Position numbers and translations under genes: made by a program. From Lachnospiraceae bacterium (GTDB taxonomy: Bacteria > Bacillota > Clostridia > Lachnospirales > Lachnospiraceae), in the NCBI GenBank assembly GCA_018056425.1, contig JAGPFR010000029.1, forward strand, positions 1 to 32,013: 32,013 nucleotides of DNA, in the 5' to 3' direction. Below, in pieces: positions 1,053 through 32,013 of the stretch (positions are counted from its first letter, which is position 1; each line of letters begins with the position of its first letter). The notes beneath the pieces are model-generated. The model had not been told where the DNA came from, did no database searches, and was given only the letters and a program-made list of their open reading frames with translations.

Positions 1053-1187
1053 CTATCCACATATCCACGGTATTTCAATTATCAGAGATTGAAAATACCG
1101 TGGATTATTTAATTATTGTGTGGATATCTAAATCCAGTATTCATGCGTACCTTACACCCGTTATCCACTTAATCCACTTAATCCACC
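1053..1187. promoter_or_regulatory. Cluster of DnaA-box-like 9-mers upstream of the helicase-loader operon
   Basis: Against the DnaA box TTATCCACA, the gap contains CTATCCACA at 1053-1061 (8/9), ATATCCACG at 1061-1069 (7/9), and TAATCCACG on the minus strand at 1099-1107 (7/9). It also has ATATCCACA on the minus strand at 1119-1127 (8/9), and three head-to-tail copies with exactly 9-bp spacing: TTATCCACT at 1161-1169 (8/9), TAATCCACT at 1170-1178 (7/9) and TAATCCACC at 1179-1187 (7/9). Two of the seven fall in the stem of the murC hairpin and may be structural only. The cluster lies immediately upstream of the dnaD-like gene. The motifs are directly visible; DnaA binding and a regulatory role are inference. 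No dnaA or dnaN is nearby, so there is no specific reason to call it oriC. Confidence 0.5.
1063..1105 (+). terminator. Hairpin after murC
   Basis: An inverted repeat of about 17 bp (left arm 1063-1079, right arm 1088-1105, one bulged base, 8-nt loop) begins 12 nt after the murC stop. It is followed by an A/T-rich stretch (ATTATTTAATTATT) rather than a clean T run, so termination is likely but not certain. The two ends of the stem read ATCCACGG and CCGTGGAT, so two of the DnaA-box-like 9-mers in this gap are parts of this hairpin. Confidence 0.6.
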
Positions 1188-1264
1188 GATATGGTGACTA
1201 ACCCTCAAATCCGCATGGTTTCTGATAAATCGTCATTTTGTCCATTTTGCTGATGCGGCCTTTG

Positions 1265-1273
1265 TGATATAAG
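1265..1273 (+). promoter_or_regulatory. Extended -10 promoter candidate for dnaD-dnaI-prs
   Basis: TGATATAAG at 1265-1273 is an extended -10 element (TGn plus TATAAG). No good -35 lies at 17 bp; TTGCTG at 1247-1252 would give a short 15-bp spacer. Transcription would begin near 1280, which would exclude the GTG at 1273 as the start codon of the following gene and favours the TTG at 1321. Confidence 0.4.
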
Positions 1274-1320
1274 TGGTATTACCGCTGATTTGGATCAGGC
1301 GGCGAACGGGGGTCACTTTT

Positions 1321-2496
1321 TTGGCACAGTTAACAATTTATCAGGACAGTTATATAAATGCGACGATCCTTTCAAACAGGTTCATCGACGAGTACATGAC
1401 GGATGCAAATGATGCGCAGCTTAAGGTATATCTCTACACAGCGCGCATGATGAGCGCAAATCTGGAAACTTCAGTAACGGACATAGCAGACAGATTTAAT
1501 TACACCGAGAAGGATGTACTCAGAGCATTTAAATACTGGCAGAGCAAGGGCATCCTTGAACTGGATTATGATGAGAACGGTACGCTTTGCGGCGTTCATC
1601 TCAAGAATCTGTGCAAGAGTGACAGTGTGGCTCCTTCGGTTGAATCCACACATCTCCCTCAATCGCTGATCATTCCCCAGACGATAGTTTCATCTCCGGG
1701 AAAACAGACCGTATTCAGCGAAAACGAGCGTAAGGCTGCGGAAAGGGTTGCAGAGGCCGAAAACAAGGCTGCAGTGATACCCGCCAAGCCTTCATATACA
1801 CCTTCCATGGTAAGGGAATTTAAAGCTTCCCGTACCGCTTCGGATAACGGGATAGACATCTTCTATCTTGCCGAAGAATACAGGAAAAAGCCTCTTTCAC
1901 CCTCGGATATCGGCACCATTATTTATATCTGCGATGAACTCGGTTTTTCGGACGAACTTTTCGATCACCTCCTCCAATATTGTGCTTCTAAAGACAAGTT
2001 CGATTTCAGATATATAGAGAAGGTTGCGATATCCTGGAAAGAGAGCGGCATTACCACTCCCCGGGAGGCGGAAAATGCTCCCGGAAGGTATGACAGGAAA
2101 GTCTATGAGATCATGAGACAGCTCGGTAAGACGGGAAATACGCCCACCGACAAAGAAGTCTCTTATATAACCAAATGGACCGGTGAGTACGGCTTTTCGG
2201 ACGAGATCATCCTCGAAGCATGCGACAGGACCGTAATGGCTACCGAGAAGAACCGCTTCCAGTATGCCGATAAGATCCTGAAGAACTGGAAGGATAAGGG
2301 CGTGGGAAATCTTGCAGATATCGAAGATCTTGATAAAGCCCACGGTGAAAATATCGTGAAAAACAAAGCCGCAGCAGGCTCTCCCAAGAGCAATGCACAG
2401 AAGGCCGGAACCAATTCTTCCAATATGTTCAACAGATTCACGCAGAGAACCGACTACGATTTTGAAGCACTTGAGAAAAAACTCATCAAGAACTGA
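1321..2496 (+). CDS. DnaD-domain replication initiation protein
   Basis: This is a DnaD/DnaB-type primosome component of Firmicutes, which helps place the replicative helicase at origins and stalled forks. From TTG 1321 it is 391 aa. The N-terminal 90 residues look like a winged-helix domain (LKVYLYTARMM, then VTDIADRFNYTEKDVLRAFKYW). A charged linker follows, then two copies of the DnaD C-terminal helical module (DDBH2), each ending in the hallmark pattern: FRYIEKVAISWKESGI and FQYADKILKNWKDKGV. The extreme C-terminus is basic and disordered-looking. I chose TTG 1321 (protein starts MAQLTIYQDSYI) because GGGGG sits 8 nt upstream at 1308-1312; an in-frame GTG at 1273 has no ribosome site and probably lies upstream of the transcription start. 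Only 14 nt separate it from the ATPase gene, consistent with a helicase-loading operon. Confidence 0.88.
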   Translation: MAQLTIYQDSYINATILSNRFIDEYMTDANDAQLKVYLYTARMMSANLETSVTDIADRFNYTEKDVLRAFKYWQSKGILELDYDENGTLCGVHLKNLCKSDSVAPSVESTHLPQSLIIPQTIVSSPGKQTVFSENERKAAERVAEAENKAAVIPAKPSYTPSMVREFKASRTASDNGIDIFYLAEEYRKKPLSPSDIGTIIYICDELGFSDELFDHLLQYCASKDKFDFRYIEKVAISWKESGITTPREAENAPGRYDRKVYEIMRQLGKTGNTPTDKEVSYITKWTGEYGFSDEIILEACDRTVMATEKNRFQYADKILKNWKDKGVGNLADIEDLDKAHGENIVKNKAAAGSPKSNAQKAGTNSSNMFNRFTQRTDYDFEALEKKLIKN

Positions 2497-11423: not shown

Positions 11424-12692
11424 ATGGTAAAAAAAGAAATGATAGCCATGCTTCTGGCAGGCGGACAGGGTTCGAGGCTTGGTGTTCTTACTTCCAAAGT
11501 CGCTAAGCCCGCCGTATCATTCGGAGGAAAATACAGGATCATAGATTTCCCTTTGTCCAACTGTATCAATTCCGGTGTTGATACGGTCGGTGTGCTTACT
11601 CAGTATCAGCCTCTCAGACTGAACTCCCATATCGGCATCGGTATTCCCTGGGATCTCGACAGAAATATAGGCGGTGTCAGTGTGCTTCCTCCCTACGAAA
11701 GTGTTCAGGGAAGTGAATGGTATTCGGGAACCGCAAATGCTATTTACCAGAATATGGAATATATCGAGAATTACAATCCCGATTACGTCCTTATACTTTC
11801 CGGTGACCATATTTATAAGATGGACTACGAGGTCATGCTCGATTTCCATAAGGCAAAGGGCGCGGATCTTACGATCGCCGTAATGCCCGTACCTCTTGAG
11901 GAAGCAAGCAGATTCGGAATCATGATCACTGACGAAGACAAGAGGATCATCGACTTTGAGGAAAAGCCCAAGAATCCCCGTTCCAATCTGGCTTCGATGG
12001 GTATCTATATTTTCAACTGGCAGACTCTCCGTGAGGGGATGCTCGCACTCAAAGATATTCCCGGCCTTGATTTCGGTAAGCACATAATCCCTTATTGCAG
12101 GGATAAGGGCGCCGGCTTATATGCTTATGAATTCAATTCATACTGGAAGGATGTAGGAACTCTTCATTCATATTGGCAGGCAAACATGGAGCTCATCGAT
12201 ATAGTTCCCGAGTTCAATCTCTATGAAGAGTATTGGAAGATCTATACCAAGAGCGATATTCAGCCGCCACAGTATTTCGGCCCCGAATCGGAGGTTTCGA
12301 AATGTATCATCGGTGTCGGAAGCGAGATCTGCGGCAAGGTTTACAATTCCGTTATCGGATGCGGTGTAAGGATCGGTAAGAACTCGGTTATAAGAGATTC
12401 GATAATCATGAACGAAACCGTGATCGGTGAAGGATGCGACATCACAAAAGGCGTCATCGCAGAAAGGGTCAAAGTCGGAAACAATGTCGTAATGGGATTC
12501 GGTGAAGAAGTGCCCAATGACACCGCGCCCCAGATCTATACCGACGGCCTTGTTACGATCGGAGAAAAGAGCGTTATTCCCGACGGAGTGAGAATAGGCA
12601 AGAACTCCGTTGTATATGGAGTGACCACCAAGGAAGATTATCAGGATGATTATCTCGGATGCGGAAAAACCCTTATCACCGCTGAAGAGTAA
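11424..12692 (+). CDS. glgC: Glucose-1-phosphate adenylyltransferase GlgC
   Basis: Makes ADP-glucose from glucose 1-phosphate and ATP, the committed step of glycogen synthesis. It is 422 aa. The nucleotidyltransferase domain (1-260) shows [14 protein letters not shown] at 11-24, [19 protein letters not shown] at about 29-47, catalytic-region [10 protein letters not shown] and the sugar-phosphate motif FEEKPKNP. A left-handed beta-helix of hexapeptide repeats fills the C-terminal third ([17 protein letters not shown] and similar). The start ATG has GGGAGG 11 nt upstream. It is followed 10 nt later by glgD, the usual Clostridia and Bacilli arrangement in which GlgD modulates GlgC. No glgA, glgB or glgP is in the window. 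Confidence 0.95.
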
Positions 12693-12702
12693 GGAGTAGG
12701 AT

Positions 12703-13839
12703 ATGAGAGCGATCGGAATAATACTTGCCGGCGGAAACAATCACAGAATGGCTGAGCTTTCGCAAAAGAGAGCGGTCTGCGCCATGCCTATTGCGGGCAG
12801 TTATCGCAGTATCGACTTTACTCTCAGTAACATGTCCAATTCACATGTTCAGAAAGTTGCGGTCTTTACACAGTACAATGCCGGAAGCCTTAATCGTCAT
12901 ATGAACTCATCCAAGTGGTGGGACTTCGGACGTAAGCAGGGCGGACTTTATGTCCTGACACCTGCCATGACATGTGACAACAGCAGCTGGTACAGGGGAA
13001 CTGCGGATGCGATCTATCAGAATCTCGGATTCCTCAAGGAAAGCCATGAGCCCTATGTCATCATCGCACCCGGCGACTGCGTTTATAAGATGGATTTCAA
13101 TGCTCTTCTCGAGTATCACGTGGATAAGAAGGCCGATATTACGGTAGTCTGCAAGGATCTTCCCGAAGGCTACGATATGTCCAGATACGGCACGATAATG
13201 ATGAACGAGGAAATGAGAGTTGTCGGATTTGAAGAGAAACCTCTTCAGCCCAAGACCAGGACCATTTCCTGCGGAATCTATATCATCCGCAGAAGACTTC
13301 TGATCGATGTCATCGAGAAGTGTGCCGAAGAAGACAGATATGATTTCGTAAGAGACGTTATCATCAGGTATAAAGATGTAAAGAGAATGTTCGGATATAA
13401 GATCACTTCTTACTGGAAGAACATTGCATCGGTTGAGGATTATTTCGAGACGAATATGGATTTCCTCAATCCCGATATCAGAAATTATTTCTTCAACCAG
13501 TATCCGAACATATACTCCAAGGTTGATGACCTTCCTCCCGCAAAATACAATCCGGGCGCAAGCCTTAAGAATTCCCTTGTATCGAGCGGATGTATAGTAA
13601 ACGGAACCGTAGAGAACTCGATCCTCTTTAAATCGAGCTACATCGGAAACAATACCGTGATCCGAAATTCCATCATCCTCAACGATGTCTATATTGGTGA
13701 CAATGCCGTCATAGAAAACTGCATCGTTGAAAGTCACAGTACCATAAACGGCGGAGAAGTCCACAGAGGCGAGGGGGGGACAGATCAAAGTCGTGGTGGA
13801 ACAAAGAGAACGGTTTGTTATGTAACATTCAGGGACTGA
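12703..13839 (+). CDS. glgD: GlgD, glucose-1-phosphate adenylyltransferase-like subunit; probable 3' frameshift
   Basis: Paralogue of GlgC that pairs with it and alters its kinetics. The N-terminus ILAGGNNHRMAELSQKRAVC keeps the fold but departs from the GlgC GGxGxRL loop, as expected for GlgD. APGDCVYKMDF and FEEKPLQPKTRT mark the sugar-nucleotide region, and hexapeptide repeats (SSYIGNNTVIRNSIIL) follow. As it stands the frame ends in a non-homologous tail, TDQSRGGTKRTVCYVTFRD, to 13839. Deleting one G from the seven-G run at 13773-13779 restores GQIKVVVEQRERFVM and a TAA at 13823-13825, which looks like a normal GlgD end (373 aa). This is a sequencing or assembly error, a recent mutation, or an unstable tract. 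Only the last dozen or so residues are affected, and GlgD activity might survive. Confidence 0.9.
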   Translation: MRAIGIILAGGNNHRMAELSQKRAVCAMPIAGSYRSIDFTLSNMSNSHVQKVAVFTQYNAGSLNRHMNSSKWWDFGRKQGGLYVLTPAMTCDNSSWYRGTADAIYQNLGFLKESHEPYVIIAPGDCVYKMDFNALLEYHVDKKADITVVCKDLPEGYDMSRYGTIMMNEEMRVVGFEEKPLQPKTRTISCGIYIIRRRLLIDVIEKCAEEDRYDFVRDVIIRYKDVKRMFGYKITSYWKNIASVEDYFETNMDFLNPDIRNYFFNQYPNIYSKVDDLPPAKYNPGASLKNSLVSSGCIVNGTVENSILFKSSYIGNNTVIRNSIILNDVYIGDNAVIENCIVESHSTINGGEVHRGEGGTDQSRGGTKRTVCYVTFRD

Positions 13840-18218: not shown

Positions 18219-18263
18219 AACTGTTATCAAAAAATTAACCTTTATGTGTTGAAAGGGGGTTCT

Positions 18264-19409
18264 ATGAGAATTATAAGAAATCTCGTAATTGCCATGGCTT
18301 CGGCACTGTTTGTGATAGGCGTATCAGCCTTCGAAGCTCAGGCAGCACCCGTCAAAATGGCTGACGGAACCATGTTTGACGCAGAGTATTATGCTGCAGC
18401 ATATCCCGATGTAGTAGCGGTATTCGGAAATAATGCCGATCTGCTCTACATGCATTACCAGCTTTGCGGTAAGGCAGAGGGAAGACTTGCGGTTGCACCT
18501 TCAGCCGCTGCTCCTTCACTTGCTACCGGAAGCACCGCAGCAGGAACATTCGATGCAGCATATTATGCTAAGAGATATCCCGATGTTGTGGCAGTACTCG
18601 GAACCGATCCCGCAGTCCTTAAGCTTCACTATGATCTCTATGGTAAGGCAGAAGGCAGATTCGGAAGCGCGGCAGAAGAGAATGCAGCAGGCGCTGCAGC
18701 AGTAACCGCTCCCGTTGCAGGAAATCCCGCAGCTCCCACTACCGGAGTTACCATTTCCTCGCTCGGATCAAGATACGCAGCAGTTTCTGCTGATGTAATG
18801 CTTGACGGAACCGGTACCGGATATCACGCAAAGATTTCCCTCCAGAACGGAATCGGAAGTGCCATCAGCTTCGGTATCCAGTATGACCTCTTCGGAGCAA
18901 AGCCCTATAACGGAAAGACTGTTTACTTATCAGAGAACGTTGTTAATAACCTTCCCGGCGGACAGGTTTACACCAGACACGGATTTGCACAGCTCGGCGT
19001 TCCTACCAATATCATGATCGTCCTTGATATGCAGACCGGACTTGTAGACCTCTATGTAAACGGAAGCCTTGTAGGACAGGTTGCAAATACCAATCTTCTC
19101 CAGGGACAGCTCAGCGCGGTTGTTGAAGGCGCAGCAAGAATTGACGGAGATACCGTATTTGCAAACTTCTCAAATGTAAGATTCAAGAAGCCCGGAACTT
19201 CCAATACAAACGGCGACAGAGTATTCTTCTGGCAGACCCAGAACACCAACGCAGGTATTGCTACCGCATATTCGGGATCAGCTCCCGGAGGATATTGCAC
19301 CTCCAGTAACATTACCGTAAGAGGAACCATCGTCGGCCTCGGCATATTTGACTGGGACAGCGCATATGCCAATGTATCCGGAATGGGTATATACGCAATG
19401 TGGCTGTAA
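18264..19409 (+). CDS. Secreted protein with two YYAxxYPDVV repeats
   Basis: A 381-aa exported protein of unknown function. It has a classical signal peptide: MRIIRN, a hydrophobic core, and a likely AQA-A cleavage near residue 28. Two tandem repeats of about 40 residues follow: FDAEYYAAAYPDVVAVFGNN to GKAEGRL, and FDAAYYAKRYPDVVAVLGTD to GKAEGRF, a module I recall from surface and secreted proteins of Lachnospiraceae. An Ala/Pro-rich linker (about 140-165) leads to a C-terminal domain of about 215 residues rich in beta-type sequence (GIQYDLFGAKPYNGKTVY, TNIMIVLDMQTGLVDLYVNGSLVG), reminiscent of a lectin-like jelly roll but not assigned. ATG 18264 is chosen because AAAGGGGG lies just upstream and it gives a normal signal peptide; an upstream GTG at 18246 precedes that site. 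It has its own strong promoter and terminator. Confidence 0.82.
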   Translation: MRIIRNLVIAMASALFVIGVSAFEAQAAPVKMADGTMFDAEYYAAAYPDVVAVFGNNADLLYMHYQLCGKAEGRLAVAPSAAAPSLATGSTAAGTFDAAYYAKRYPDVVAVLGTDPAVLKLHYDLYGKAEGRFGSAAEENAAGAAAVTAPVAGNPAAPTTGVTISSLGSRYAAVSADVMLDGTGTGYHAKISLQNGIGSAISFGIQYDLFGAKPYNGKTVYLSENVVNNLPGGQVYTRHGFAQLGVPTNIMIVLDMQTGLVDLYVNGSLVGQVANTNLLQGQLSAVVEGAARIDGDTVFANFSNVRFKKPGTSNTNGDRVFFWQTQNTNAGIATAYSGSAPGGYCTSSNITVRGTIVGLGIFDWDSAYANVSGMGIYAMWL

Positions 19410-19443
19410 GCCCTAAGCGGTAAAACTTAAATATAAGGCTCAG

Positions 19444-19483
19444 AACTCTGTACCGATCCCCGAGGTCGGTACAGAGTTTTTTT
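19444..19483 (+). terminator. Rho-independent terminator after the secreted repeat protein
   Basis: ACTCTGTACCGA (19445-19456) and TCGGTACAGAGT (19466-19477) form a perfect 12-bp stem with a 9-nt loop, followed by T6. Confidence 0.95.
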
Positions 19484-19533
19484 GTTGGCTGATTTGCACA
19501 AAAGACGGAAACTAAATTCGTTAATTGGTTTTC

Positions 19534-19562
19534 TTGTACTGTGGAAGCCCGTATTCTATAAT
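19534..19562 (+). promoter_or_regulatory. Promoter of the tetR-GH2-GPH-GTB-GH36 operon
   Basis: TTGTAC (19534-19539), 17-bp spacer, TATAAT (19557-19562). Transcription would start near 19569, giving a leader of about 143 nt, long for this window. An inverted repeat, GGAAACG (19563-19569) and CGTTTCC (19584-19590), starts directly after the -10 and would straddle the start site. Confidence 0.72.
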
Positions 19563-19659
19563 GGAAACGTGAAAACTAAAAATCGTTTCCTATAGTTTCT
19601 TATTATTTTCGATGTATTATCCGGTATCGGATTAATCGATTTGTCTTTCCCGGTATCGG
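19563..19659 (+). promoter_or_regulatory. Candidate operators in the leader of the tetR operon
   Basis: Three elements are visible. GGAAACG / CGTTTCC (19563-19569 and 19584-19590) is a 7-bp inverted repeat with a 14-nt centre. ATCCG-GTAT-CGGAT (19619-19632) is a perfect palindrome with 5-bp arms. The 10-mer CCGGTATCGG at its core (19621-19630) recurs exactly at 19650-19659. Any of these could be the TetR binding site; which one cannot be decided from sequence. The rest of the 19484-19712 gap shows no ORF. Confidence 0.45.
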
Positions 19660-19712
19660 CGTTTCATTATGTAACTGTTTCGTTTTTCTTATGATTCGAA
19701 AGGCAGGTTAAT

Positions 19713-20285
19713 ATGCAGGATCTCGCAAAACTCAGAAAAACAATACTGGAAGGCTGTATCGAAGTTTACGGTGAAAAAGGAATTAAATTCACAATGGACG
19801 ATCTGGCCAGGCATCTCGGGATGAGCAAGAAGACCATTTACACCGTCTATCGTGAAAAGAAAACACTCTTCATGGCGATGGTCGACTACGTATTCGATTC
19901 CATCAAAGAGAGTGAGAAGGCAGTCGTGGAAGATCCCGCGCTTTCAACCGTAGAGAAGATCAGAAAGATCCTCGGAGTTCTCCCGGACAGTTATAAGAAT
20001 GTGGATCTGAACCAGCTGTACATCCTTCGTGAGAAATATCCCGACATATATGTAAAGGTTGAAGAAAGACTTGAGACCGGATGGGATCTTACGATCTCGC
20101 TTATCGAACAGGGTATAAAGGAAGGCGTTATCAGATCGGTAAACATTGTTCTGGTAAAGATGATGTTCGAAGCTTCCCTCGAGCAGTTTTTCTCAAGAGA
20201 TATCCTCGTCAGAAACGATATCAGTTATCTGGAAGCACTTAATGAAGTCGTTGATATTATCGTAGACGGAATCACGGTTAAATAA
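19713..20285 (+). CDS. TetR/AcrR-family transcriptional regulator
   Basis: A 190-aa one-domain-plus-ligand-pocket regulator. The DNA-binding helix-turn-helix is at about 25-56: FTMDDLARHLGMSKKTIYTVYREKKTLFMAMV. The C-terminal part is helical and divergent, as usual for TetR ligand domains. It is the first gene of the sugar operon, 11 nt before the GH2 gene, so it is probably autoregulated together with the structural genes. TetR control of a glycoside operon is less common than LacI, AraC or GntR control. The ligand is unknown; a sugar or sugar-derived inducer is only a guess. Start ATG 19713 has AGGCAGG upstream. Confidence 0.88.
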   Translation: MQDLAKLRKTILEGCIEVYGEKGIKFTMDDLARHLGMSKKTIYTVYREKKTLFMAMVDYVFDSIKESEKAVVEDPALSTVEKIRKILGVLPDSYKNVDLNQLYILREKYPDIYVKVEERLETGWDLTISLIEQGIKEGVIRSVNIVLVKMMFEASLEQFFSRDILVRNDISYLEALNEVVDIIVDGITVK

Positions 20286-20296
20286 CGGAGGCCGAA

Positions 20297-22723
20297 ATGA
20301 AGGAAAGATTCTATTTAAGTGATAATTGGAAGTTTACGACTGTTTATGAAGACAGAATGCTTTTTCCCGAGTATGACGACTCGGCATTTGAGACCGTCAG
20401 GATTCCCCACACTGTCAAGGAAACGCCGTTTAATTATTTTGACGAATCAGAATACCAGATGCTGACTCTCTACAGGAAGCACATAGATGTTCCTGCAGAC
20501 TGGGAAGGAAAATGCATCAAGCTCACATTCGACGGAGCTGCTCATTATGCCGATGTCTACGTAAACGGCGACAGGGCTGCAAGGCATTATTGCGGATATA
20601 CCGCATTTACCGTAGACATCTCATCCCTTCTTAAATACGGATGCGAAAATCTTATCTCTGTCAAACTCGACAGCAGGGAAGACCTTGATCAGCCGCCTTT
20701 CGGTCATGTTATCGATTACATGACTTATGGCGGACTCTACAGAAATGTCTACCTCGATGTATATGACAATGCTCATATGGAGAGACTTTTCATATACTCG
20801 GAAATTAATGACACGAGTGTCAAACTTATTACGACCGCATATGTCGAAGGCGAAACGCAGGAGGGCACGGTTGTAAAAGAGTACATCAAAAAGCACGGCT
20901 CTGATGATGCAGAGCGTGAAATCGCATCATGGGAACTTCCTGCGGAAAGCTCTGCGATCTCAGTCGAGTGCAATCCCGGCGAAGTTGAGAAATGGTATCC
21001 CGAGGCACCCGTTTTATATGACGTAAGGGTTTCACTTACTGATAAGGGCGGCAAAATACTTGATGAGCAGATTGTCACAACGGGAATAAGAAGCGCGGTA
21101 TGGAAGACTGACGGCTTTTATTTAAACGGTGAGAAGTATCTTATCAGAGGTCTCAACCGTCACCAGAGTTATCCTTACGTGGGATATGCGATGCCGGATT
21201 CCGTACAGGCGGAAGATGCAAGGATCCTTAAGGATGAACTCGGTGTCAACGCGGTAAGAACTTCACACTACCCTCAGTCACAGGCTTTCATCTCCGAATG
21301 TGACCGGATAGGACTTCTCGTATTTACAGAGATTCCGGGATGGCAGCATATCGGCGGCGAAGACTGGAAGAAGCAGGCTGTGGAGAATGTTAAGGAGATG
21401 GTTCTTCAGTACAGAAATCATCCGTCGATAATTCTCTGGGGCGTAAGGATCAATGAGTCCGGAGACGATCACGACTTCTATACGCAGACCAATTCCTGTG
21501 CAAGAAGCCTCGATCCCTCGAGACAGACCGGAGGCGTAAGATTCCTTAAGAAGAGCGAACTTCTGGAGGATGTATATACCTTTAACGATTTCTCACATAC
21601 GGGCGGCAAGACCGACGGATGCAATCCCAAGAAAGCAGTCACGTCCGACGTGACCAAGCCTTATATCGTTACAGAGTACGGCGGACATATATATCCCACC
21701 AAGAGCTATGACGATGAGGATCACAGGAAAGAACATTCTCTCAGACATGCCAAAGTCCTTGACGGAGTTGCTTCCGAAGGAGATATCGCAGGTTCGTTCG
21801 GATGGTGTTTCTTTGACTACAATACGCACAAAGATTTCGGAAGCGGAGACCGTATCTGTTATCACGGCGTTAACGATATGTTCAGAAATCCCAAGCTTGC
21901 CGCTTATGTATATGCGGCACTCGGATCCCATGAACCGGTTCTTGAGCTTTCATCATCCATGGATATCGGAGAACATCCCGAGAGCAGGATCGGAGAAGCG
22001 TGGATATATACCAACGCAGACAGCGTCAAGATGTATAAGAACGACATACTCATCAAGGAATTCTTCCCTTCGGATTCACCTTACAAGTATCTGACCCACG
22101 GTCCCATTCTGGTTGATGATTATGTGGGCGATGCGATCAGAAAGGGAGAGGATTTCACACCCGCACAGGCTGAGGATGTAAAGTTCCTTCTCAATCAGTA
22201 TGCACTGTACGGAATGGATGATCTCGGACCCAAGGCAAAGGCCATCGCGGCAAAATGCCTCACCGTTTACAGAATGACAATGGATCAGGCAAACCAGCTC
22301 TACGGAAAATATGTCGGTAACTGGGGCGGCGATGCGATCACTTACAGATTCGATGCATTAAAGGGCGGCGAAGTCGTAAAGAGCATAACCAAGGAAGTTG
22401 TAAGAGAGATCAGACTTACCGCGGAGTGCTATAAGACCGAGCTTATCGAGAATGAAACTTACGATGTTGCTGCGGTAAGGATCATTGCCGAAGATCAGAA
22501 CGGAAATCATATTCCGTACTTTAATGAACCGGTACTTCTCAGGGCTGACGGTCCCGTGAAGATAATCGGACCTTCCGCGATCTCGCTTAAAGGCGGAATG
22601 GGAGGAACATATATCAAAACCGTCGGAGAAGAAGGGGAAGCGGTGCTTCACATAGTCAATATGCAGGCCGGGGAGATCAAAATCACATTTAATATCAAGG
22701 TGAACAGAGCACCTCAGATTTGA
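20297..22723 (+). CDS. Glycoside hydrolase family 2 (beta-galactosidase-like)
   Basis: An 808-aa cytoplasmic glycosidase with no signal peptide. In order: a GH2 sugar-binding jelly roll (about 1-165; FDGAAHYADVYVNGDRAARHYCGYTAF), an Ig-like domain (about 170-265), and a TIM barrel (about 270-570). Barrel motifs are GLNRHQSYPYVGYA, RTSHYPQS, the acid/base Glu387 in WGVRINES and the probable nucleophile Glu460 in YIVTEYGGH. C-terminal Ig-like domains end with a DUF4982/Big-type segment. GH2 covers beta-galactosidases, beta-glucuronidases and beta-mannosidases. The neighbouring GPH symporter and GH36 alpha-galactosidase favour a beta-galactoside-type substrate, but exact specificity is not visible. 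It is separated from tetR by 11 nt and has GGAGG at its start. Confidence 0.9.
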   Translation: MKERFYLSDNWKFTTVYEDRMLFPEYDDSAFETVRIPHTVKETPFNYFDESEYQMLTLYRKHIDVPADWEGKCIKLTFDGAAHYADVYVNGDRAARHYCGYTAFTVDISSLLKYGCENLISVKLDSREDLDQPPFGHVIDYMTYGGLYRNVYLDVYDNAHMERLFIYSEINDTSVKLITTAYVEGETQEGTVVKEYIKKHGSDDAEREIASWELPAESSAISVECNPGEVEKWYPEAPVLYDVRVSLTDKGGKILDEQIVTTGIRSAVWKTDGFYLNGEKYLIRGLNRHQSYPYVGYAMPDSVQAEDARILKDELGVNAVRTSHYPQSQAFISECDRIGLLVFTEIPGWQHIGGEDWKKQAVENVKEMVLQYRNHPSIILWGVRINESGDDHDFYTQTNSCARSLDPSRQTGGVRFLKKSELLEDVYTFNDFSHTGGKTDGCNPKKAVTSDVTKPYIVTEYGGHIYPTKSYDDEDHRKEHSLRHAKVLDGVASEGDIAGSFGWCFFDYNTHKDFGSGDRICYHGVNDMFRNPKLAAYVYAALGSHEPVLELSSSMDIGEHPESRIGEAWIYTNADSVKMYKNDILIKEFFPSDSPYKYLTHGPILVDDYVGDAIRKGEDFTPAQAEDVKFLLNQYALYGMDDLGPKAKAIAAKCLTVYRMTMDQANQLYGKYVGNWGGDAITYRFDALKGGEVVKSITKEVVREIRLTAECYKTELIENETYDVAAVRIIAEDQNGNHIPYFNEPVLLRADGPVKIIGPSAISLKGGMGGTYIKTVGEEGEAVLHIVNMQAGEIKITFNIKVNRAPQI

Positions 22724-22737
22724 TCAAAGGAGGCAAT

Positions 22738-24192
22738 ATGGACAACAAAAAATTATCGGGACGCGAAAAGGCGGCATACGGCTTAGGTGCAGTAGGCAAA
22801 GACATGGTGTACATGCTATCCGCAAGCTATGTCCTGTATTATTTTCAGGATCTGCTAGGAGTTAATTCGGTTGCAATGGGATTTATCCTTCTCGTTGCGA
22901 GAGTATTCGATGCGTTCAACGATCCCATCATGGGCGTTGTCGTAGCAAAGACCCATACCAGATGGGGAAGATTTCGTCCCTGGCTCCTTATCGGAACACT
23001 AACCAATGCTGTAGTTTTGTTTGCAATGTTCGCATGCCCTCCGAGTCTTGATGCAAAGGGACTTGTTGCATACGCTGCAATAACCTATATCCTCTGGGGC
23101 GTTACCTATACCATGATGGATATCCCTTACTGGTCAATGATCCCTGCTTTTACCAAGGGCGGTAAAGAAAGAGAAGGACTCACCACTCTTGCAAGAAGCT
23201 GTGCCGGAGTCGGAAGTGCACTCGTTACGATCTTTACCGTTAAGCTCGTAAAAATGCTCGGTGATACCTTTGCGGGAAGCGGAGCTTCCGATGTTGCAAG
23301 AGAGATCGTCGGTTTTAAGTATTTTTCTCTTATAATCGCAATCCTTTTCATTGTATTTATCATCATTACGTGTGTTGCCGTTAAGGAGCAGAGCCTTGTT
23401 GACATGAAGACCGCATCGGTCGGAGACATGTTCAAAGCGCTGATATCAAACGATCAGGCAATGACCGTTGTTGTTGCGATCGTTCTGATCAACACATCGA
23501 TCTATCTTACTTCAAACCTTGTGATCTATTTCTTTAAATATGATTTCGGAGGAGTAACCTGGGGCGACAGCTACACACTCTTCAACATGTTCGGCGGCGG
23601 AGTTCAGATCATTTCCATGATGGCGTTCTATCCTCTGCTCAGAAAGTTCTTAAGTAACGTTAAGATCTTCTATGTATGTATCATCAGTGCGGTAACCGGT
23701 TATGTTACGCTTTTTGCCATTGCGTTTACGAAAATGAGCTCCGTATACATCCTCTTTATACCCGGATTCTTCATCTTCGCGGCAAACGGAGTTCTTCAGG
23801 TTATCACAACCGTATTTCTCGCAAATACCGTTGACTACGGCGAACTTAAAAATGGCAGACGTGACGAGAGTGTCATTTTCTCGATGCAGACATTTGTAGT
23901 AAAGCTTGCAAGCGGCATTGCAGCATTTGCTGCATCTATCTGCCTCCAGATTAACCATCTTCAGAAGGATGTGGAGGATACAGCTGAGAAGATCGACTAT
24001 TCACTTGCTGTTTCCGCTTCATCAAAATTCGGTCTCAGGATGACCATGGCGGTTATTCCCGTAGTCGGTCTTATTATTGCTCTTACTGTTTTCTATAAGA
24101 AATACATTCTCACAGATGCCAAGATTTCCGAGATATCCATGCAGCTCGAAGCAAAGAAGACTAAGGATCCCTGGGATGAGGAGATAGAGTGA
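22738..24192 (+). CDS. GPH-family glycoside:cation symporter (MelB-like, MFS)
   Basis: A 484-aa membrane carrier of the glycoside-pentoside-hexuronide family, importing a sugar with Na+ or H+. It has twelve hydrophobic segments. The family-typical N-terminus is KLSGREKAAYGLGAVGKDMVYML, followed by the loop DAFNDPIMGVVVAKTHTRWGRFRPWLLIG (about residues 61-89), which carries the Asp residues used for cation binding in MelB, and DIPYWSMIPAF. A C-terminal cytoplasmic tail of about 30 residues follows the last helix. Start ATG 22738 has AAAGGAGG upstream, 15 nt after the GH2 stop. In context it would deliver the galactoside cleaved by the GH2 and GH36 enzymes. Confidence 0.92.
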   Translation: MDNKKLSGREKAAYGLGAVGKDMVYMLSASYVLYYFQDLLGVNSVAMGFILLVARVFDAFNDPIMGVVVAKTHTRWGRFRPWLLIGTLTNAVVLFAMFACPPSLDAKGLVAYAAITYILWGVTYTMMDIPYWSMIPAFTKGGKEREGLTTLARSCAGVGSALVTIFTVKLVKMLGDTFAGSGASDVAREIVGFKYFSLIIAILFIVFIIITCVAVKEQSLVDMKTASVGDMFKALISNDQAMTVVVAIVLINTSIYLTSNLVIYFFKYDFGGVTWGDSYTLFNMFGGGVQIISMMAFYPLLRKFLSNVKIFYVCIISAVTGYVTLFAIAFTKMSSVYILFIPGFFIFAANGVLQVITTVFLANTVDYGELKNGRRDESVIFSMQTFVVKLASGIAAFAASICLQINHLQKDVEDTAEKIDYSLAVSASSKFGLRMTMAVIPVVGLIIALTVFYKKYILTDAKISEISMQLEAKKTKDPWDEEIE

Positions 24193-24209
24193 CGGCAAAG
24201 GAGGATGAT

Positions 24210-25712
24210 ATGGTCGACAGATCAAAATCGATATTCGGGAATAAGATAAGTTCCCGTGATTATAAAAAAGCACTTAAATCAAAACAGAAATTCATTAACA
24301 GGTTCGGAGATGATTCCGATAAGAATTATCCCGTAAGGATAGAGAAGAATAAATATATCGGTGACAGTCTCGGAGTAAATAATGTACTTGTCGGGGATCT
24401 GTCAAAGAATGCACATTACGATCCCGAGCAAAATGCCGAAGCTCTCGAATGGGATATGGAAAAGGGAATCATCGTAGGAAATATCCGTATGGGATTCGGA
24501 CATTACCGTATCTCCATGGCAATTGCATCAGCCGCAAAGTCCATGGGATATGTTCCCTACTGGATGGATCTTAATTCATACGGTGAGACCACCTGCACCA
24601 AGGTTATCGGTGCTCAAAACGACCTTTATTCACTTGGATCCAGACTATCCAAGAATCCCATATTCAACAAGCTTGTATGGGAACCGGTTAACTATGAAGG
24701 ATTCAGAGCGATAACATACAATGCATCCGATCAGAAAAACGCAGAGCTCATGGCTCCCGTTTACAGAAATGTTCCCAAGGACATTCCTGTTGTCGGAACC
24801 CATGTATGGCCCGCCCAGGCGGCGCTCCATGCCGGAATGAAAAATGTTGTAAATGCGATCCCCGACAACTGGCCCATGGCTCTTCATTTTGCGGAGGGAG
24901 CGGTTCATACGGTGCAGTGTCACAACGCATACATGGGTTACAGCATCTTAAACGGAATGAACAAGGATAAGGTATGCAGTCCCATGCCCGAAGGATCCCT
25001 TGAATATACCGGACACTACATCGACCACGAGCTTGTAAGTAATATCGAAACCGACTGCGAGGCGCGGATGAAGAGAAGAGCGGAAGGGAAGCCTATGAGA
25101 TTTCTTCTTACCATAGGAGGCGCAGGTGCGCAAAAGGAGATCTTTGCTGCAATCATAGAGTATCTGCTTCCCCAGATCAGATCGGGTAAAGCTACACTTT
25201 TTGTAAATGTCGGTGACTACAAGAATGTATGGGACGAACTTAAAAAGGAAATCTCGGGAATGAATGCTCTTTGTACCGAGCATATGAACAACTGGGAAGA
25301 TACCGAAAAGTTTGCGCAGAAGATCCTTGATCCCGATAAAGATATTGCAGGAATTCACGGCTTCTGGCATAAGAATATTTTTGAAGCGGTTTACTGCACC
25401 AATCTTCTCATGAGAGGAAGTGACGTGCTTGTCACAAAACCTTCGGAGCTTGCATTCTATCCCATTCCCAAACTCTTTATCAGAAGAGTCGGAAAACATG
25501 AGATGTGGGGTGCGATTCATTCTGCGGAGATCGGTGACGGCACACTGGAGTGCAGGGATATTCCCCACACTCTCCAGATGATCGACAGATTCCTCGGAAC
25601 ACCTCTTCTTGACGATATGAGCAAACAGATCATTGCCAACAAGAAGTCCGGAATCTATGACGGCGCATATAAGGTCGTCGAGATCGCAATGGGAATGAAG
25701 AACAAACAGTAA
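24210..25712 (+). CDS. Unrecognised GT-B-like (MurG/MGDG-synthase-type) protein in the galactoside operon
   Basis: A 500-aa protein that I cannot assign to a named family. It has no signal peptide or membrane segment. After an N-terminal region of about 85 residues comes IIVGNIRMGFGHYRISMAIA (about 87-106), whose G-x-G-H and following helix resemble the first loop of MurG and galactolipid-synthase GT-B enzymes. The second half has LLTIGGAGAQKEIF (about 299-312), like the MurG GGSxGA nucleotide loop, and SDVLVTKPSELAFYPIPKLFI (about 404-424), in the position of the donor-sugar E-loop. This supports a two-domain GT-B fold, hence a glycosyltransferase or related enzyme. Start ATG 24210 follows AAAGGAGG; the GTG at 24189 lies before that site. 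It sits 17 nt from each neighbour, so it is an operon member. A transferase in a degradative operon is odd. Confidence 0.7.
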   Translation: MVDRSKSIFGNKISSRDYKKALKSKQKFINRFGDDSDKNYPVRIEKNKYIGDSLGVNNVLVGDLSKNAHYDPEQNAEALEWDMEKGIIVGNIRMGFGHYRISMAIASAAKSMGYVPYWMDLNSYGETTCTKVIGAQNDLYSLGSRLSKNPIFNKLVWEPVNYEGFRAITYNASDQKNAELMAPVYRNVPKDIPVVGTHVWPAQAALHAGMKNVVNAIPDNWPMALHFAEGAVHTVQCHNAYMGYSILNGMNKDKVCSPMPEGSLEYTGHYIDHELVSNIETDCEARMKRRAEGKPMRFLLTIGGAGAQKEIFAAIIEYLLPQIRSGKATLFVNVGDYKNVWDELKKEISGMNALCTEHMNNWEDTEKFAQKILDPDKDIAGIHGFWHKNIFEAVYCTNLLMRGSDVLVTKPSELAFYPIPKLFIRRVGKHEMWGAIHSAEIGDGTLECRDIPHTLQMIDRFLGTPLLDDMSKQIIANKKSGIYDGAYKVVEIAMGMKNKQ

Positions 25713-25729
25713 TATATAAGGAGACGCTT

Positions 25730-28126
25730 ATGATCCGTCATATTTACAACAATGCATGGGTTCTTGATACTCCTAAAACGACATATGCGATGGCTTTGCT
25801 CCCTACGGGTCAGCTTGAACATGTTTATTACGGACGGAAGATCAGGATAGAAGATGGCGAAGGAGCACTTGATGCCCTTATCGAAAAGCATGCGTTTGCT
25901 CCGGGCAATACATGCGTGTATGACAACGATCACTGCGGATATTCACTTGAGGATGTAAGACTTGAAATGAGCTCCTACGGAAAAGGAGATCTCAGGGAGC
26001 CTTTTGTGGATATCAGATACGATGACGGATCATCGACAAGCGATTTTCAGTTCGAAAGTTTTATCATAGATGACAGGGAGCCTTTGTCGGATACACTTCC
26101 GGTTTCATATGACGAGAGCGGAAAATGCGAGCATCTGTGCATTACGCTTTCCGAGAAGGTGAAAGGCATTAAACTTCATCTTCATTATTACGTATACGAA
26201 GACTGTGACTGCATCTGCAGAATGTCCGTACTGGAAAATACATCGGATTCGGAGATCGTACTAAAGAGGCTGATGAGTACGCAGATCGATCTTGACCACG
26301 CGGGTTATTCGTTTACATCGTTCGGCGGTGCCTGGGCAAGGGAGATGCAGAAGTCATCGGTCCATCTTGTAAGAGGCAAGTTTGTTAATTCCTCAAGAAG
26401 CGGAGAATCATCTCACAGGGCAAATCCTTTTGTTATGATCCATCCCGCCGTAACAAGCGAAGACTTCGGAGATGTATACGGATTCAATCTGATCTACAGC
26501 GGCAATCATTATGAGAGCGCCGAGGTTTCTCCTTTCGGAAAGACGAGATTTATATCCGGAATAAATCCCGACGGATTTGAATTCAGGCTGGCCGCCGGAG
26601 AAAAGTTCGAATCACCCGAAGCGGTAATGTCATATTCTGCGGAAGGATTCAACGGACTGAGCCGTCACATGCACCGCTTCGTCCGCGAACATGTCGTAAG
26701 AGGAGAGTGGAAGAAGAAAGAGCGTCCTGTTCTCTTAAACAGTTGGGAGGCTGCATATTTCGATATCGATGAGAAGAAACTTGTTAAGCTTGCCAAGGCA
26801 GGACACGATGTCGGAATAGAGCTTCTTGTCATGGACGACGGATGGTTCGGTGAAAGAAACGACGATCATTCGAGTCTCGGCGACTGGGATGTTAATCCTA
26901 AGAAGTTACCGGGCGGACTTAGATCACTTGCGGATAAGATCACCGCTCTGGGAATGGGCTTTGGTATCTGGGTTGAGCCGGAGATGGTATCGGAGAAATC
27001 CAAATTGTATGAAGCACATCCCGACTGGGCGATTCAGATTCCCGGAAGAGATCATTCCGAAGGAAGATGGCAGAGAATCCTGGATCTTACCAATCCCGAA
27101 GTATGCGATTACATCGTAGATAAACTAAGCGAGGTTTTTTCATCCGCTGATATCTCATATGTGAAGTGGGATATGAACAGGACATATACGGATGTTTACT
27201 CGCAGTACCTTCCCGCAGAAAGGCAGGGAGAAGTATTCCACAGATATATCTGCGGCCTGTATTCCGTACTGAAGAGGCTCACGGAGAAGTTTCCCCATAT
27301 TCTTTTTGAAGGATGTGCATCGGGAGGAAACAGATTCGACCTCGGTATCCTCAGTTACTTCCCTCAGATCTGGGCAAGCGATGATACGGATCCCGTATGC
27401 AGGGCTGCAATCCAGACGGGCTACAGTTACGGGTATCCCATGTCGACTCTTTCGGCACATGTATCCGCAAGTCCCAATCATCAGACCCTTCGCGAGACAT
27501 CGCTTGAGACGAGATTTAATGTCGCAGCTTTCGGCGTATTCGGATACGAGTGCAATCTCTGTGACATGAAAAAAGAAGACCTTGCTGCTATAAAGGCGCA
27601 GATTGAGCTATATAAAAAGTGGAGACCTGTTTTACAGTTCGGAGAGTTCTACCGCGGACGAAATGCGGGTTCACTTCCCGTTAACGGTGTATCGAACGAT
27701 CCGAATGCCGAGGGTAATCTTACCGAGTGGACCGTTGTTGGCGATGGCGGAGAGAAAGCGGTCGGCTTCTTAATGCAGAAGCTTGTTGTTCCCAATTCGC
27801 AGTTCCATACCTATTTTGCCAGGGGACTTAATGAGGACGACACATATCACTTCTACAACAGATCACTTAAGATAGATGTAAGAGAGTTCGGTGATCTGGT
27901 AAATACGGCATCCCCCATCCATTTAAAACAGGACGGCTTACTGATCGACATTGTTGCAAAGTTCGTTAAGATGGATACGGAGAATGAAGATCTGAATGCT
28001 TCGGGTTCGGCACTTATGTATTCTGGAGTCCACCTGAAAGCAGCATTCGGTGGAACCGGTTTTAATTCCGAAGTCAGACACTTCCCCGATTTTGCCTCCA
28101 GGATCTATTTTATGGAAAAAGAATGA
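25730..28126 (+). CDS. Alpha-galactosidase, glycoside hydrolase family 36
   Basis: Removes terminal alpha-galactose from raffinose, melibiose and similar oligosaccharides. It is 798 aa, slightly longer than the usual 720-750 of AgaA-type enzymes. The N-terminal beta-supersandwich (about 1-340) begins MIRHIYNNAWVLDTPKTTYAM. The (beta/alpha)8 barrel contains LLVMDDGWFGERNDDHSSLGDW, the nucleophile Asp481 in YVKWDMNR and the acid/base Asp551 in WASDDTDP. These positions match the AgaA catalytic residues (478 and 548) with an offset of three. A C-terminal beta domain follows. There is no signal peptide, so it acts on imported sugar. It is the last gene of the operon, 17 nt after the GT-B-like gene, with AAGGAG at its start. 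A strong terminator follows. Confidence 0.95.
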   Translation: MIRHIYNNAWVLDTPKTTYAMALLPTGQLEHVYYGRKIRIEDGEGALDALIEKHAFAPGNTCVYDNDHCGYSLEDVRLEMSSYGKGDLREPFVDIRYDDGSSTSDFQFESFIIDDREPLSDTLPVSYDESGKCEHLCITLSEKVKGIKLHLHYYVYEDCDCICRMSVLENTSDSEIVLKRLMSTQIDLDHAGYSFTSFGGAWAREMQKSSVHLVRGKFVNSSRSGESSHRANPFVMIHPAVTSEDFGDVYGFNLIYSGNHYESAEVSPFGKTRFISGINPDGFEFRLAAGEKFESPEAVMSYSAEGFNGLSRHMHRFVREHVVRGEWKKKERPVLLNSWEAAYFDIDEKKLVKLAKAGHDVGIELLVMDDGWFGERNDDHSSLGDWDVNPKKLPGGLRSLADKITALGMGFGIWVEPEMVSEKSKLYEAHPDWAIQIPGRDHSEGRWQRILDLTNPEVCDYIVDKLSEVFSSADISYVKWDMNRTYTDVYSQYLPAERQGEVFHRYICGLYSVLKRLTEKFPHILFEGCASGGNRFDLGILSYFPQIWASDDTDPVCRAAIQTGYSYGYPMSTLSAHVSASPNHQTLRETSLETRFNVAAFGVFGYECNLCDMKKEDLAAIKAQIELYKKWRPVLQFGEFYRGRNAGSLPVNGVSNDPNAEGNLTEWTVVGDGGEKAVGFLMQKLVVPNSQFHTYFARGLNEDDTYHFYNRSLKIDVREFGDLVNTASPIHLKQDGLLIDIVAKFVKMDTENEDLNASGSALMYSGVHLKAAFGGTGFNSEVRHFPDFASRIYFMEKE

Positions 28127-28133: not shown

Positions 28134-28169
28134 CCCCCCCCCGGTAAATGAACCGGGGGGGGATTTTTT
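28134..28169 (+). terminator. C/G-homopolymer rho-independent terminator of the galactoside operon
   Basis: Nine C (28134-28142) plus GGT, loop AAATGA, then ACC plus eight G (to 28162): an 11-bp stem of CCCCCCCCGGT with its complement, followed by ATTTTTT. The stem is almost pure C on one side and G on the other. Confidence 0.93.
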
Positions 28170-28338: not shown

Positions 28339-29355
28339 ATGAAAAAAATGCTTACAAAGATTCTTGCGGTTCTTATATCCGCACTTATGCTTACAGCCTG
28401 CGCAGGACAGGGATCCGAGGGTATCGGATCATCTTCCGGCAAGATCCGTATCGTTACCACTATTTTCCCCGAGTATGACTGGGTTATGCAGATTCTCGGT
28501 GATAAAGCGGCTGAAGCGGATGTGACCATGCTCCTTGATAACGGCGTGGATCTTCACAGCTATCAGCCCACCGCTGACGATATCATGAAGATCGCTAATT
28601 GCGACATTTTCATTTACGTAGGCGGAGAATCTGACGGATGGGTGGAAGATGCCCTTGCAGAGTCCGTTAACAAAGATATGGTAGTTATCAATCTCCTCGA
28701 TGTACTCGGCGACAGCGTCAAAGAGGAAGAGGTGGTTGAGGGCATGCAGGAAGAGGATGAGCATCATCACGACGAGGACGAAGATCATGATGAGCATGAA
28801 GATGAAGAAGAGGAAGTAGAATATGATGAGCATGTGTGGCTTTCTCTCAGAAATGCCGCTGCCTGCTGCGATGTCATCACCGAAGGGCTTTCATCCGTAG
28901 ATTCCGAAAATGCCGCAGTTTATCATGCTAACAACGATGCATACAAAGCGCAGCTTTCCGCTCTTGATGCTCAGTACAAAGAGGCGGTTGAAGGTGCGGC
29001 TTTCGATACTCTTTTATTTGGAGACAGATTCCCTTTCAGATATCTGACCGATGATTATAACTTAAAATATTACGCTGCTTTTGTGGGATGCTCCGCAGAG
29101 AGCGAAGCAAGCTTTGAGACCATTGTTTTCCTTGCGGGCAAGGTTGATGAACTCGGCCTCAAGTCGATCATGACAATTGAAAATAATGATCAGAAGATCG
29201 CACAGACCATCCGTGACAATACCGCAGATAAGGATCAGGAAATCTGCGTTCTCGATTCAATGCAGGCAGTAACTTTGGACGACGTCAAAAATGGGGTTAC
29301 ATATTTATCCATCATGACCGATAACCTTGAGGTTCTTAAAAAGGCACTCAATTGA
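28339..29355 (+). CDS. Metal ABC transporter substrate-binding lipoprotein (ZnuA/AdcA-like)
   Basis: A 338-aa cluster A-I binding protein for zinc or manganese. The lipobox LTAC places the lipidated Cys at 21. Likely metal ligands are His73 in DLHSYQPT and His165 in EYDEHVWLS. Between them, residues 138-164 form an acidic His-rich loop (EEDEHHHDEDEDHDEHEDEE), typical of zinc-binding ZnuA proteins. The segment where ZnuA usually has its third His (HDAFGY-like) reads GDRFPFRY here, so that ligand is absent or replaced; this may mark a subfamily with altered metal geometry. No ZnuB or ZnuC gene is adjacent and a terminator follows, so it is a single-gene unit. Its promoter carries two Fur/Zur-type boxes. 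Confidence 0.88.
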   Translation: MKKMLTKILAVLISALMLTACAGQGSEGIGSSSGKIRIVTTIFPEYDWVMQILGDKAAEADVTMLLDNGVDLHSYQPTADDIMKIANCDIFIYVGGESDGWVEDALAESVNKDMVVINLLDVLGDSVKEEEVVEGMQEEDEHHHDEDEDHDEHEDEEEEVEYDEHVWLSLRNAAACCDVITEGLSSVDSENAAVYHANNDAYKAQLSALDAQYKEAVEGAAFDTLLFGDRFPFRYLTDDYNLKYYAAFVGCSAESEASFETIVFLAGKVDELGLKSIMTIENNDQKIAQTIRDNTADKDQEICVLDSMQAVTLDDVKNGVTYLSIMTDNLEVLKKALN

Positions 29356-31105: not shown

Positions 31106-32013
31106 GTGAAGATATTTGCATATTCATTAAGACCTTATGACGAGCAGGGATTTTTCGAAGACATCTGTAAGAAGAAGGGGATAGAATACGGATTTACATC
31201 CGAATACCCTTCACTTGAAAATGCGCATTTGTGTGAAGGGTACGATGCACTCAGTATTCTTACCAATACGATGAATCCTGAGCTTCTTGATAAATTCAGG
31301 AGTCTCGGTATCAGATATATCTCCACGCGTACAATAGGATACGATCACATCGACAATGCGTACGCACATAAGATCGGTATCCGTACCGCATCAATTTCTT
31401 ATGATCCTACAGGCGTTGCGGATTATTCCATCATGATGATGCTCATGGGGCTTCGCAGGATCATGCCCATTATCGAAAGAGGAAACATTCAGGACTATTC
31501 CCTGAAAGGAAAACTCGGAAGACATATTCAGGACTGCACCGTAGGTATCGTCGGAACAGGAAGGATAGGGACCAAAGTTATAGAGCATCTTTCGGGGTTC
31601 GGATGTAAGATGCTTTGTTATGACATCAGACAGAATGATTCTGCGGCTAAATACGCGGAGTATACAGATCTTGAAACCATATATAAAAAATGTGACATCA
31701 TTTCACTCCATGTGCCGGGTCTTGAAGCAAACTATCATATGATAGGCAGGGATCAGATTGCAATGATGAAGGACGGCGTCATGATCATTAACTGTGCCAG
31801 AGGAATGCTCGTTGATACTCAGGCCATGATAGATGGGATCGAATCGGGTAAGATCGGATTTGCCGGTCTTGACACGATAGAGCATGGAGACGGTCTTTAT
31901 TACCTTGACAGAAAAGGGGATATTCTGGATAACCATGACATGGCTGTTCTTAAATCCTATCCCAACGTGCTTCTTACATCCCACATGGCATTCTATACGG
32001 ATGTCGCCGTAAG
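31106..32013 (+). CDS. D-isomer-specific 2-hydroxyacid dehydrogenase (3' end missing)
   Basis: NAD-dependent dehydrogenase of the D-lactate dehydrogenase/VanH branch; the reaction would be pyruvate or another 2-oxoacid to the D-hydroxyacid. 302 residues are visible, of an expected 325-335. The N-terminal substrate-binding part includes STRTIGYDHID at 73-83. The Rossmann loop is GIVGTGRIG at 147-155. The catalytic set is complete: Arg232 in NCARG, Glu259 in DTIE, and His293 in TSHMAFYTD. Start GTG 31106 has AGGAG at 31091-31095, 10 nt upstream. It lies 30 nt after the GH13 gene with no terminator between. Fermentative D-lactate formation is likely, while a role in vancomycin-type D-Ala-D-Lac synthesis is not supported by any neighbouring ligase. 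Confidence 0.9.
   Translation, partial: MKIFAYSLRPYDEQGFFEDICKKKGIEYGFTSEYPSLENAHLCEGYDALSILTNTMNPELLDKFRSLGIRYISTRTIGYDHIDNAYAHKIGIRTASISYDPTGVADYSIMMMLMGLRRIMPIIERGNIQDYSLKGKLGRHIQDCTVGIVGTGRIGTKVIEHLSGFGCKMLCYDIRQNDSAAKYAEYTDLETIYKKCDIISLHVPGLEANYHMIGRDQIAMMKDGVMIINCARGMLVDTQAMIDGIESGKIGFAGLDTIEHGDGLYYLDRKGDILDNHDMAVLKSYPNVLLTSHMAFYTDVAV

Follow-up and report, generated by a model that had tools for sequence, protein, structure and literature searches.

The DNA analyzed here (the window, 32,013 nucleotides from a Lachnospiraceae bacterium) contains five consecutive plus-strand genes encoding a TetR-family regulator, a GH2 glycosidase, a GPH symporter of the MelB type, a protein with the Pfam domains DUF6937 and DUF6938, and a GH36 α-galactosidase (Table 1). 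Since the five genes lie between two terminator-like hairpins, they very likely constitute one operon. The hairpin scan is weak by itself, with 12 sites on both strands compared to 7.5 expected in shuffled sequences; the two hairpins bounding the operon have the longest stems among the five plus-strand sites. The GH2, GPH and GH36 neighbors are those named in an initial annotation of this DNA, to which the TetR regulator is now added. Positions 19481-19730 contained just three 9-nt inverted repeats with arms far apart, and no TetR operator is claimed.

Table 1. Features of the DUF6937-DUF6938 locus (coordinates refer to the window).
Feature	Coordinates	Strand	Basis or remark
Terminator-like hairpin upstream of operon	19442..19480	+	17-bp stem, T run
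TetR-family regulator, probable operon regulator	19713..20285	+	Pfam TetR_N 30.7 bits, above cut-off
GH2 β-galactosidase-type glycosidase	20297..22723	+	Pfam GH2 domains; nearest solved structure β-D-galactosidase 5ldr/5euv, E 1.4e-143
GPH:cation symporter, MelB type	22720..24192	+	TIGR00792 335.9 bits, above cut-off; MelB 4m64, E 1.5e-63
Ribosome-binding site AAAGGAGG of DUF6937-DUF6938 gene	24197..24204	+	Read off the sequence
DUF6937-DUF6938 gene	24210..25712	+	500 aa, predicted GT-B fold
G95-F-G-H98 loop	24492..24503	+	Candidate catalytic-base loop, as in GT28
T409-K421 TKPSELAFYPIPK, near-invariant loop in place of the canonical donor motif KxGGxTxxE	25434..25472	+	TKPSE in 127/127 DUF rows
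GH36 α-galactosidase	25730..28126	+	Melibiase plus GH36 N and C domains; AgaA 4fnr, E 1.2e-176
Terminator-like hairpin just 3' of GH36, probable operon end	28135..28162	+	11-bp stem, 10 GC pairs, T run

The frame of the DUF6937-DUF6938 gene is free of stops over 500 codons and open already from a GTG at 24189; the ATG at 24210 is the preferred start because of the ribosome-binding site located 5 nt upstream. Translation confirmed the 500-residue protein of the initial annotation, which had also correctly positioned the motifs GFGH (residues 95-98), IGGAGAQKE (302-310) and TKPSELAFYP (409-418) and the 17-nt intervals that separate the GPH stop from the ATG and the stop of the gene from the GH36 ATG. 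The full-length open frames of homologues in many genomes exclude a chance reading frame.

Several genes outside the operon were recorded. A 387-residue protein, unmatched in Pfam and NCBIfam up to E = 1, is encoded at 18246-19409 (+), with mfd on one side and the operon on the other, and a relative is equally placed upstream of TetR in five other loci (L002, L003, L005, L008 and L009). The operon is directly followed by a ZnuA zinc/manganese ABC substrate-binding gene (28339-29355, +) and then a GH13 gene, with no transporter genes called alongside. Two neighboring nucleotidyltransferase genes with hexapeptide repeats, which we take to be GlgC/GlgD-like, occupy 11424-13839 (+). A D-2-hydroxyacid dehydrogenase gene (31106-32011, +), truncated by the window end, is nearest to VanH-type D-lactate dehydrogenases, far under the cut-offs (275.6 of 540 bits).

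Family membership and distribution

The protein is a full-length member of DUF6937 (PF22052) and DUF6938 (PF22053), with scores of 403.4 and 381.0 bits in one chain (cut-off 27 for each). No function is assigned to either domain in Pfam, and neither is named in any paper of the open-licence literature searched. NCBIfam returned nothing above noise, and two sequence searches of the PDB yielded no credible chain, the single match being a chance match to vimentin (E 0.69). The term 'uncharacterised' used in the initial annotation is therefore appropriate in that no function is assigned, although both domains were already present in Pfam. The Pfam and NCBIfam searches found no match to a characterised family, in agreement with the earlier reading. 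The gene is real and conserved, and unstudied in the literature searched.

One scan of genome contigs recovered 225 relatives, the best 80 of which were examined. The titles of these 80 name Lachnospiraceae, Butyrivibrio, Roseburia, Agathobacter, Pseudobutyrivibrio and Lachnobacterium (the five genera presumably all belonging to the Lachnospiraceae) and once only 'Clostridia', with many from the rumen or herbivore gut. At the genus level the gene is present in 25 of 31 genomes and at the family level in 46 of 299, while the phylum sample yielded 5 of 398. Matches were obtained in 21 of 391 genomes of the class sample, 18 of which are full members, while G837, G766 and G821 contain distant relatives. 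The gene is single-copy in the genomes listed, with the exception of split or partial matches in G405 and G1067. Genome searches covered samples within the phylum; outside of it one copy was found, which is 51% identical over 99% and is carried by the Treponema saccharophilum plasmid pTS2, the one match among plasmids. The search of viral contigs with the family alignment (A1) confirmed no homologue, and none was found in the phage collection.

Three individual observations concern these copies. An apparent fusion to GH36 in G1086 (a 1323-residue frame) was a product of measuring from stop to stop, and resolves into a 505-residue frame and a separate 798-residue frame that starts like GH36 of the window. 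As called, the copy in G889 (L128) lacks the greater part of the N-terminal stretch. On pTS2 (L184), a gene annotated as a viperin family antiviral radical SAM protein (25191-26006) is located approximately 10 kb from the DUF6937-DUF6938 gene.

Predicted fold and relation to GT28 enzymes

The AlphaFold2 model obtained with 76 window and locus sequences had a pLDDT of 88.9 and a pTM of 0.91. Foldseek returned 58 matches in the PDB at E ≤ 0.001; the best 50 of the 58, with E-values from 2.3e-6 to 6.1e-4, are glycosyltransferases, trehalose-phosphate synthases and UDP-GlcNAc epimerases, all of which we take by enzyme name to be GT-B enzymes. By TM-score MGD1:UDP (TMt 0.68, TMq 0.47, rmsd 5.6), 12th by E-value, came first of the 50 listed matches. 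The model and the 50 listed matches agree with the GT-B fold, comprised of two Rossmann-like domains, that had been claimed from the sequence, and this is the predicted fold of the protein. Approximately 85 additional N-terminal residues precede the first Rossmann strand in the model. Confidence is lower at the donor loop (pLDDT 78 for residues 411-420) and around it (65-67 for residues 301-310 and 421-450), and no helix is predicted for residues 410-420. While the predicted fold belongs to a superfamily already known, any function assigned to the protein is a prediction.

The initial annotation had compared loops of the protein with those of MurG and MGDG synthase, members of GT28. The GxGH loop of the GT28 N-domain is the candidate catalytic base and the KxGGxTxxE motif binds the donor. 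Motifs were counted in 127 DUF6937-DUF6938 rows (119 different) and in 29 usable MGDG_synth frames from 30 loci, L180 having no frame of sufficient length. The GxGH loop is present in all 127 rows and all 29 frames, while KxGGxTxxE is found in 0 of 127 rows versus 29 of 29 frames and TKPSE in 127 of 127 rows versus 0 of 29 frames. The comparison accordingly holds for the GxGH loop and a distant kinship but fails for the donor loop, which TKPSELAFYP replaces. The distance from K410 to P420 is 10 residues, compared with 15 in the corresponding MGDG_synth and MurG (L131) examples. Across the 119 different rows 92 residues are invariant, including H98, R93, R100, H198, D219, K410, E413, H430 and E431. 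As judged from these alignments, the N-domain loop is retained and the donor-binding loop is rebuilt.

No match of the protein to the Pfam families Glyco_transf_28, Glyco_tran_28_C or MGDG_synth was obtained up to E = 1, so that its family connects to these families solely via bridging proteins (L130 and the MurG L131). The absence of KxGGxTxxE places the protein outside GT28 by the defining motif, although it may function like a GT28 enzyme all the same. Resemblance to MurG comprises the predicted GT-B fold and a match of the Clostridia MurG to DUF6938 below the cut-off (23.5 of 27 bits). Resemblance to MGDG synthase and UgtP-type enzymes (PF06925) extends from the fold to the GxGH loop, which opens the first N-domain helix in both, and to a C-domain 'TH' motif and glycine loop that align in a profile comparison with 25 MGDG-synthase sequences pre-filtered for K[PS]G (probability 44%, E 2.4e-4, one pair). 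Unlike these enzymes, the DUF6937-DUF6938 protein has TKPSE for KxGGxTxxE, the N-terminal addition and a location in uptake operons.

A second, smaller 'TKPSE' GT-B-like protein of 436 residues, encoded at 628-1938 (+) of L130 in G837, bridges DUF6938 and MGDG/UgtP-type synthases. It matched DUF6938 with 58 bits, MGDG_synth with 11.7 bits (cut-off 25) and diglucosyl-diacylglycerol synthase with 25.6 bits (cut-off 500), and the profile comparison with alignment A1 gave 97%.

Conservation of the gene neighborhood

Neighbors within 6 kb were identified with cluster HMMs, which recovered GPH at 87 of 99 loci, compared with 85 for clusters and 23 for single-sequence phmmer; L142, a bridge locus and non-member, is counted among the 99, and the matchless L147 was dropped. 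Counts were made on 69 loci, exclusive of L142, that are flanked on each side by 4 kb or more. Drawn as they were from the 80 nearest of 225 relatives and 20 stretches chosen among more distant matches, the loci cannot be treated as independent. A MelB-type GPH gene was present at 66 of the 69 loci and immediately adjacent on the same strand at 59. A GH36-type gene, GH2 or both were found at 59 loci and neither at 10, so that the co-occurrence with glycosidase genes seen in the window extends to the homologues. Individually, GH36 was found at 43 loci (plus three with diverged GH36-like genes), GH2 at 40, TetR at 37, an HD-domain gene at 12, GalK at 8 and GalT at 5. The 69 loci displayed 25 different strings of recognised genes. 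In a tree built quickly from 70 different proteins (the 69 and that of Treponema), some forks of which are poorly supported, the position of GPH changed at least 7 times, the presence of GH2 10 times and that of GH36 5 times; GPH was near 67 of the 70 and missing nearby for 3, while a GH36-type gene accompanied 47 and GH2 40. Across rearrangements, GPH is a more lasting partner than either glycosidase. In the genome of the window (2.56 Mb, 91% complete), the neighboring symporter is the single MFS_2 match, and we put the odds of chance adjacency to the sole MFS_2 gene at roughly one in a thousand.

The link to galactoside uptake and degradation genes recurs in other arrangements. On pTS2 the order is GH36, DUF6937-DUF6938, TetR and GPH, and the opposite strand carries galT, an aldose epimerase gene and galK at a distance of 7-11 kb. 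Three loci (L144, L145 and L146) contain compact operons with the order GPH, GH36-like, DUF6937-DUF6938 and GalK. Seven of the 10 loci with no glycosidase gene form one Butyrivibrio clade with the DUF6937-DUF6938 and GPH genes, and all seven genomes encode GH36 and GH2 elsewhere. G725 encodes the protein with no match to GPH, melibiase or galactokinase in the genome. Three loci have no GPH gene nearby, of which L151 (G658) contains a lipase-like gene only, L137 (G932) a GH36-like gene only and L136 (G889) no recognised neighbor. The results from G725 and these three loci indicate that the link to GPH is not absolute. The copies in G725 (L135) and at L136 are orphans outside any recognised galactoside operon.

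Overall, the protein is very probably of the GT-B type and tied in function to galactoside uptake, and it probably contributes an undescribed step to the use of plant galactosides. The operons resemble MelB/GH36 operons for α-galactosides in encoding GH36 and a GPH symporter with most of the galactosyl-binding residues of MelB and, in some loci, in the proximity of GalK or GalT. To our knowledge, classical melibiose/raffinose operons encode no GT-B protein.

Candidate substrate and proposed role

Alignment of the symporter with MelB (4m64) over its length showed that K18, D19, D55, D59, Y120, D124, W128, R149, T373 and K377 are kept, while I22, Y26 and W342 are changed, the latter to Gln. Passages of a MelB study identify D19, D124, K18, W128 and R149 as galactosyl-binding and describe W342 as packing on the sugar ring (PMC8329300). 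Since most galactosyl-binding residues are kept and W342 is changed, recognition of a galactoside is likely but not certain. The presence of both GH36 (α) and GH2 (β) suits a compound carrying both bonds, for which the best-fitting plant compound would be digalactosylglycerol from leaf galactolipid; raffinose-type sugars or host α-Gal glycans would also suit the symporter and GH36. A hint at lipid is provided by the gene for a Hydrolase_4 α/β-hydrolase at three loci, matched at the family level. It is located 2 nt downstream in L151, beside the symporter gene in L150 and, in L134, three genes upstream. The nearest solved relatives of the Hydrolase_4 protein are unnamed α/β hydrolases followed by monoglyceride lipases (E about 5e-13). 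For the copy in L134, the score to lysophospholipase L2 was 118 bits, below the cut-off. Galactosylglycerols from galactolipids are substrates of β-galactosidases according to passages of one article (PMC8333865), and passages of another (PMC9626764) mention that galactolipids are hydrolysed by some strains of Butyrivibrio. Narrow searches of the open-licence literature on the catabolism of galactolipids, galactosylglycerol or α-galactosides by gut bacteria yielded background material at most.

We propose that the DUF6937-DUF6938 protein is a cytosolic GT-B enzyme acting on a galactoside or galactosyl fragment imported by the MelB-type symporter, a pathway to which we give in full a probability of roughly 0.35. 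The TetR-controlled operon would import a plant galactoside with α- and β-galactosyl bonds, for which the head group of leaf galactolipids (digalactosyl- or galactosyl-glycerol) is the most plausible candidate. GH36 would strip α-galactose, to be metabolized by GalK and GalT, and the DUF6937-DUF6938 enzyme would then process the remaining β-galactoside by galactosyl transfer. The loop containing His98 may serve as general acid or base. The TKPSEL loop, in its rebuilt form, may hold a non-canonical co-substrate, either phosphate or, in the direction of cleavage, UDP, as opposed to a canonically bound UDP-sugar. Hydrolysis of this β bond by GH2 would be an alternative, and the presence of GH2 at 40 of the 69 loci indicates that a cleaving role of the DUF6937-DUF6938 enzyme would often be redundant. 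That the protein represents a new class of GT-B enzymes, cleaving β-galactosyl-glycerol or a similar galactoside with phosphate or UDP in place of water as the acceptor, is unlikely as a specific claim. No match to glycoside phosphorylase families was found in Pfam or NCBIfam.

Possible, though doubtful, is a biosynthetic galactosyltransferase that uses UDP-galactose supplied via GalK and GalT for a membrane galactolipid or surface glycan when galactose is plentiful. The retained GxGH loop and the rank of MGD1, a galactolipid synthase, by TM-score among the 50 listed matches are consistent with such an enzyme, as is G725, where the gene is found with no galactose-catabolic matches, though with an MGDG_synth match. 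Also in favor, four genomes with the DUF6937-DUF6938 gene (G000, G142, G294 and G744) gave no match to PF06925; however, MGDG_synth is absent anyway in 26 of 79 genomes and its absence is therefore not telling. Against a biosynthetic role, no row contains the canonical donor motif, and the gene differs from one for a membrane-lipid synthase in its patchiness in the family and in the phylum sample and in its location in uptake operons.

It is improbable that the protein is a non-catalytic partner of the symporter derived from a GT-B enzyme, for example a sugar-sensing or inducer-exclusion protein. Loss of the canonical donor motif, the constancy of GPH as a neighbor and the Butyrivibrio clade with the DUF6937-DUF6938 and GPH genes only (7 of 70 rows) fit this role, but the invariant residues, H98 and E413 among them, resemble an active site and the gene is retained at L151, L136 and L137 with no GPH nearby.

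Enzymes with a GT-B-type fold also include nucleotide-sugar hydrolases and epimerases, as exemplified by PseG and WecB, and an enzyme of this kind could tune UDP-Gal and UDP-Glc during galactose use. Non-hydrolysing UDP-GlcNAc 2-epimerases are among the Foldseek matches (3beo, 6vlb, 3dzc and 4fkz) and some operons contain GalK or GalT. The TM-scores of the epimerases are nevertheless below that of MGD1, PF02350 (Epimerase_2) gave no match up to E = 1, and the steadiest partner is the importer and not GalT (66 versus 5 of 69 loci), which makes this function distinctly improbable.

Finally, cleavage by a sucrose-synthase-like enzyme of the sucrose left by GH36 acting on raffinose-family sugars would be in keeping with a MelB-type symporter and GH36, the usual toolkit for raffinose and melibiose, and would supply UDP-glucose, the co-substrate of GalT, but is very improbable since sucrose synthase belongs to the retaining enzymes of GT4 and carries an EX7E motif, P420 sits at the EX7E spacing from E413, and the GH2 gene would be left unexplained.

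With regard to the proposed cleavage of the remaining β-galactoside, passages of PMC8333865 describe galactolipids as main components of chloroplast membranes. Head groups of lipids so abundant are a potential source of sugar for bacteria of the herbivore gut, and no dedicated bacterial operon for galactolipid head groups was found among the entries listed in narrow searches of the open-licence literature. If β-galactosyl-glycerol is indeed cleaved by transfer to phosphate or UDP, gut Lachnospiraceae and a spirochaete would have an energy-saving pathway dedicated to these head groups, and the donor site of the enzyme would differ from those of known GT-B families. The invariant rebuilt donor loop makes the protein more interesting than a plain GT28 enzyme. 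Conserved, predicted to adopt the GT-B fold, invariant in its non-canonical donor loop and associated with one type of importer in two phyla, the protein provides a testable lead to an undescribed family of carbohydrate-active enzymes.
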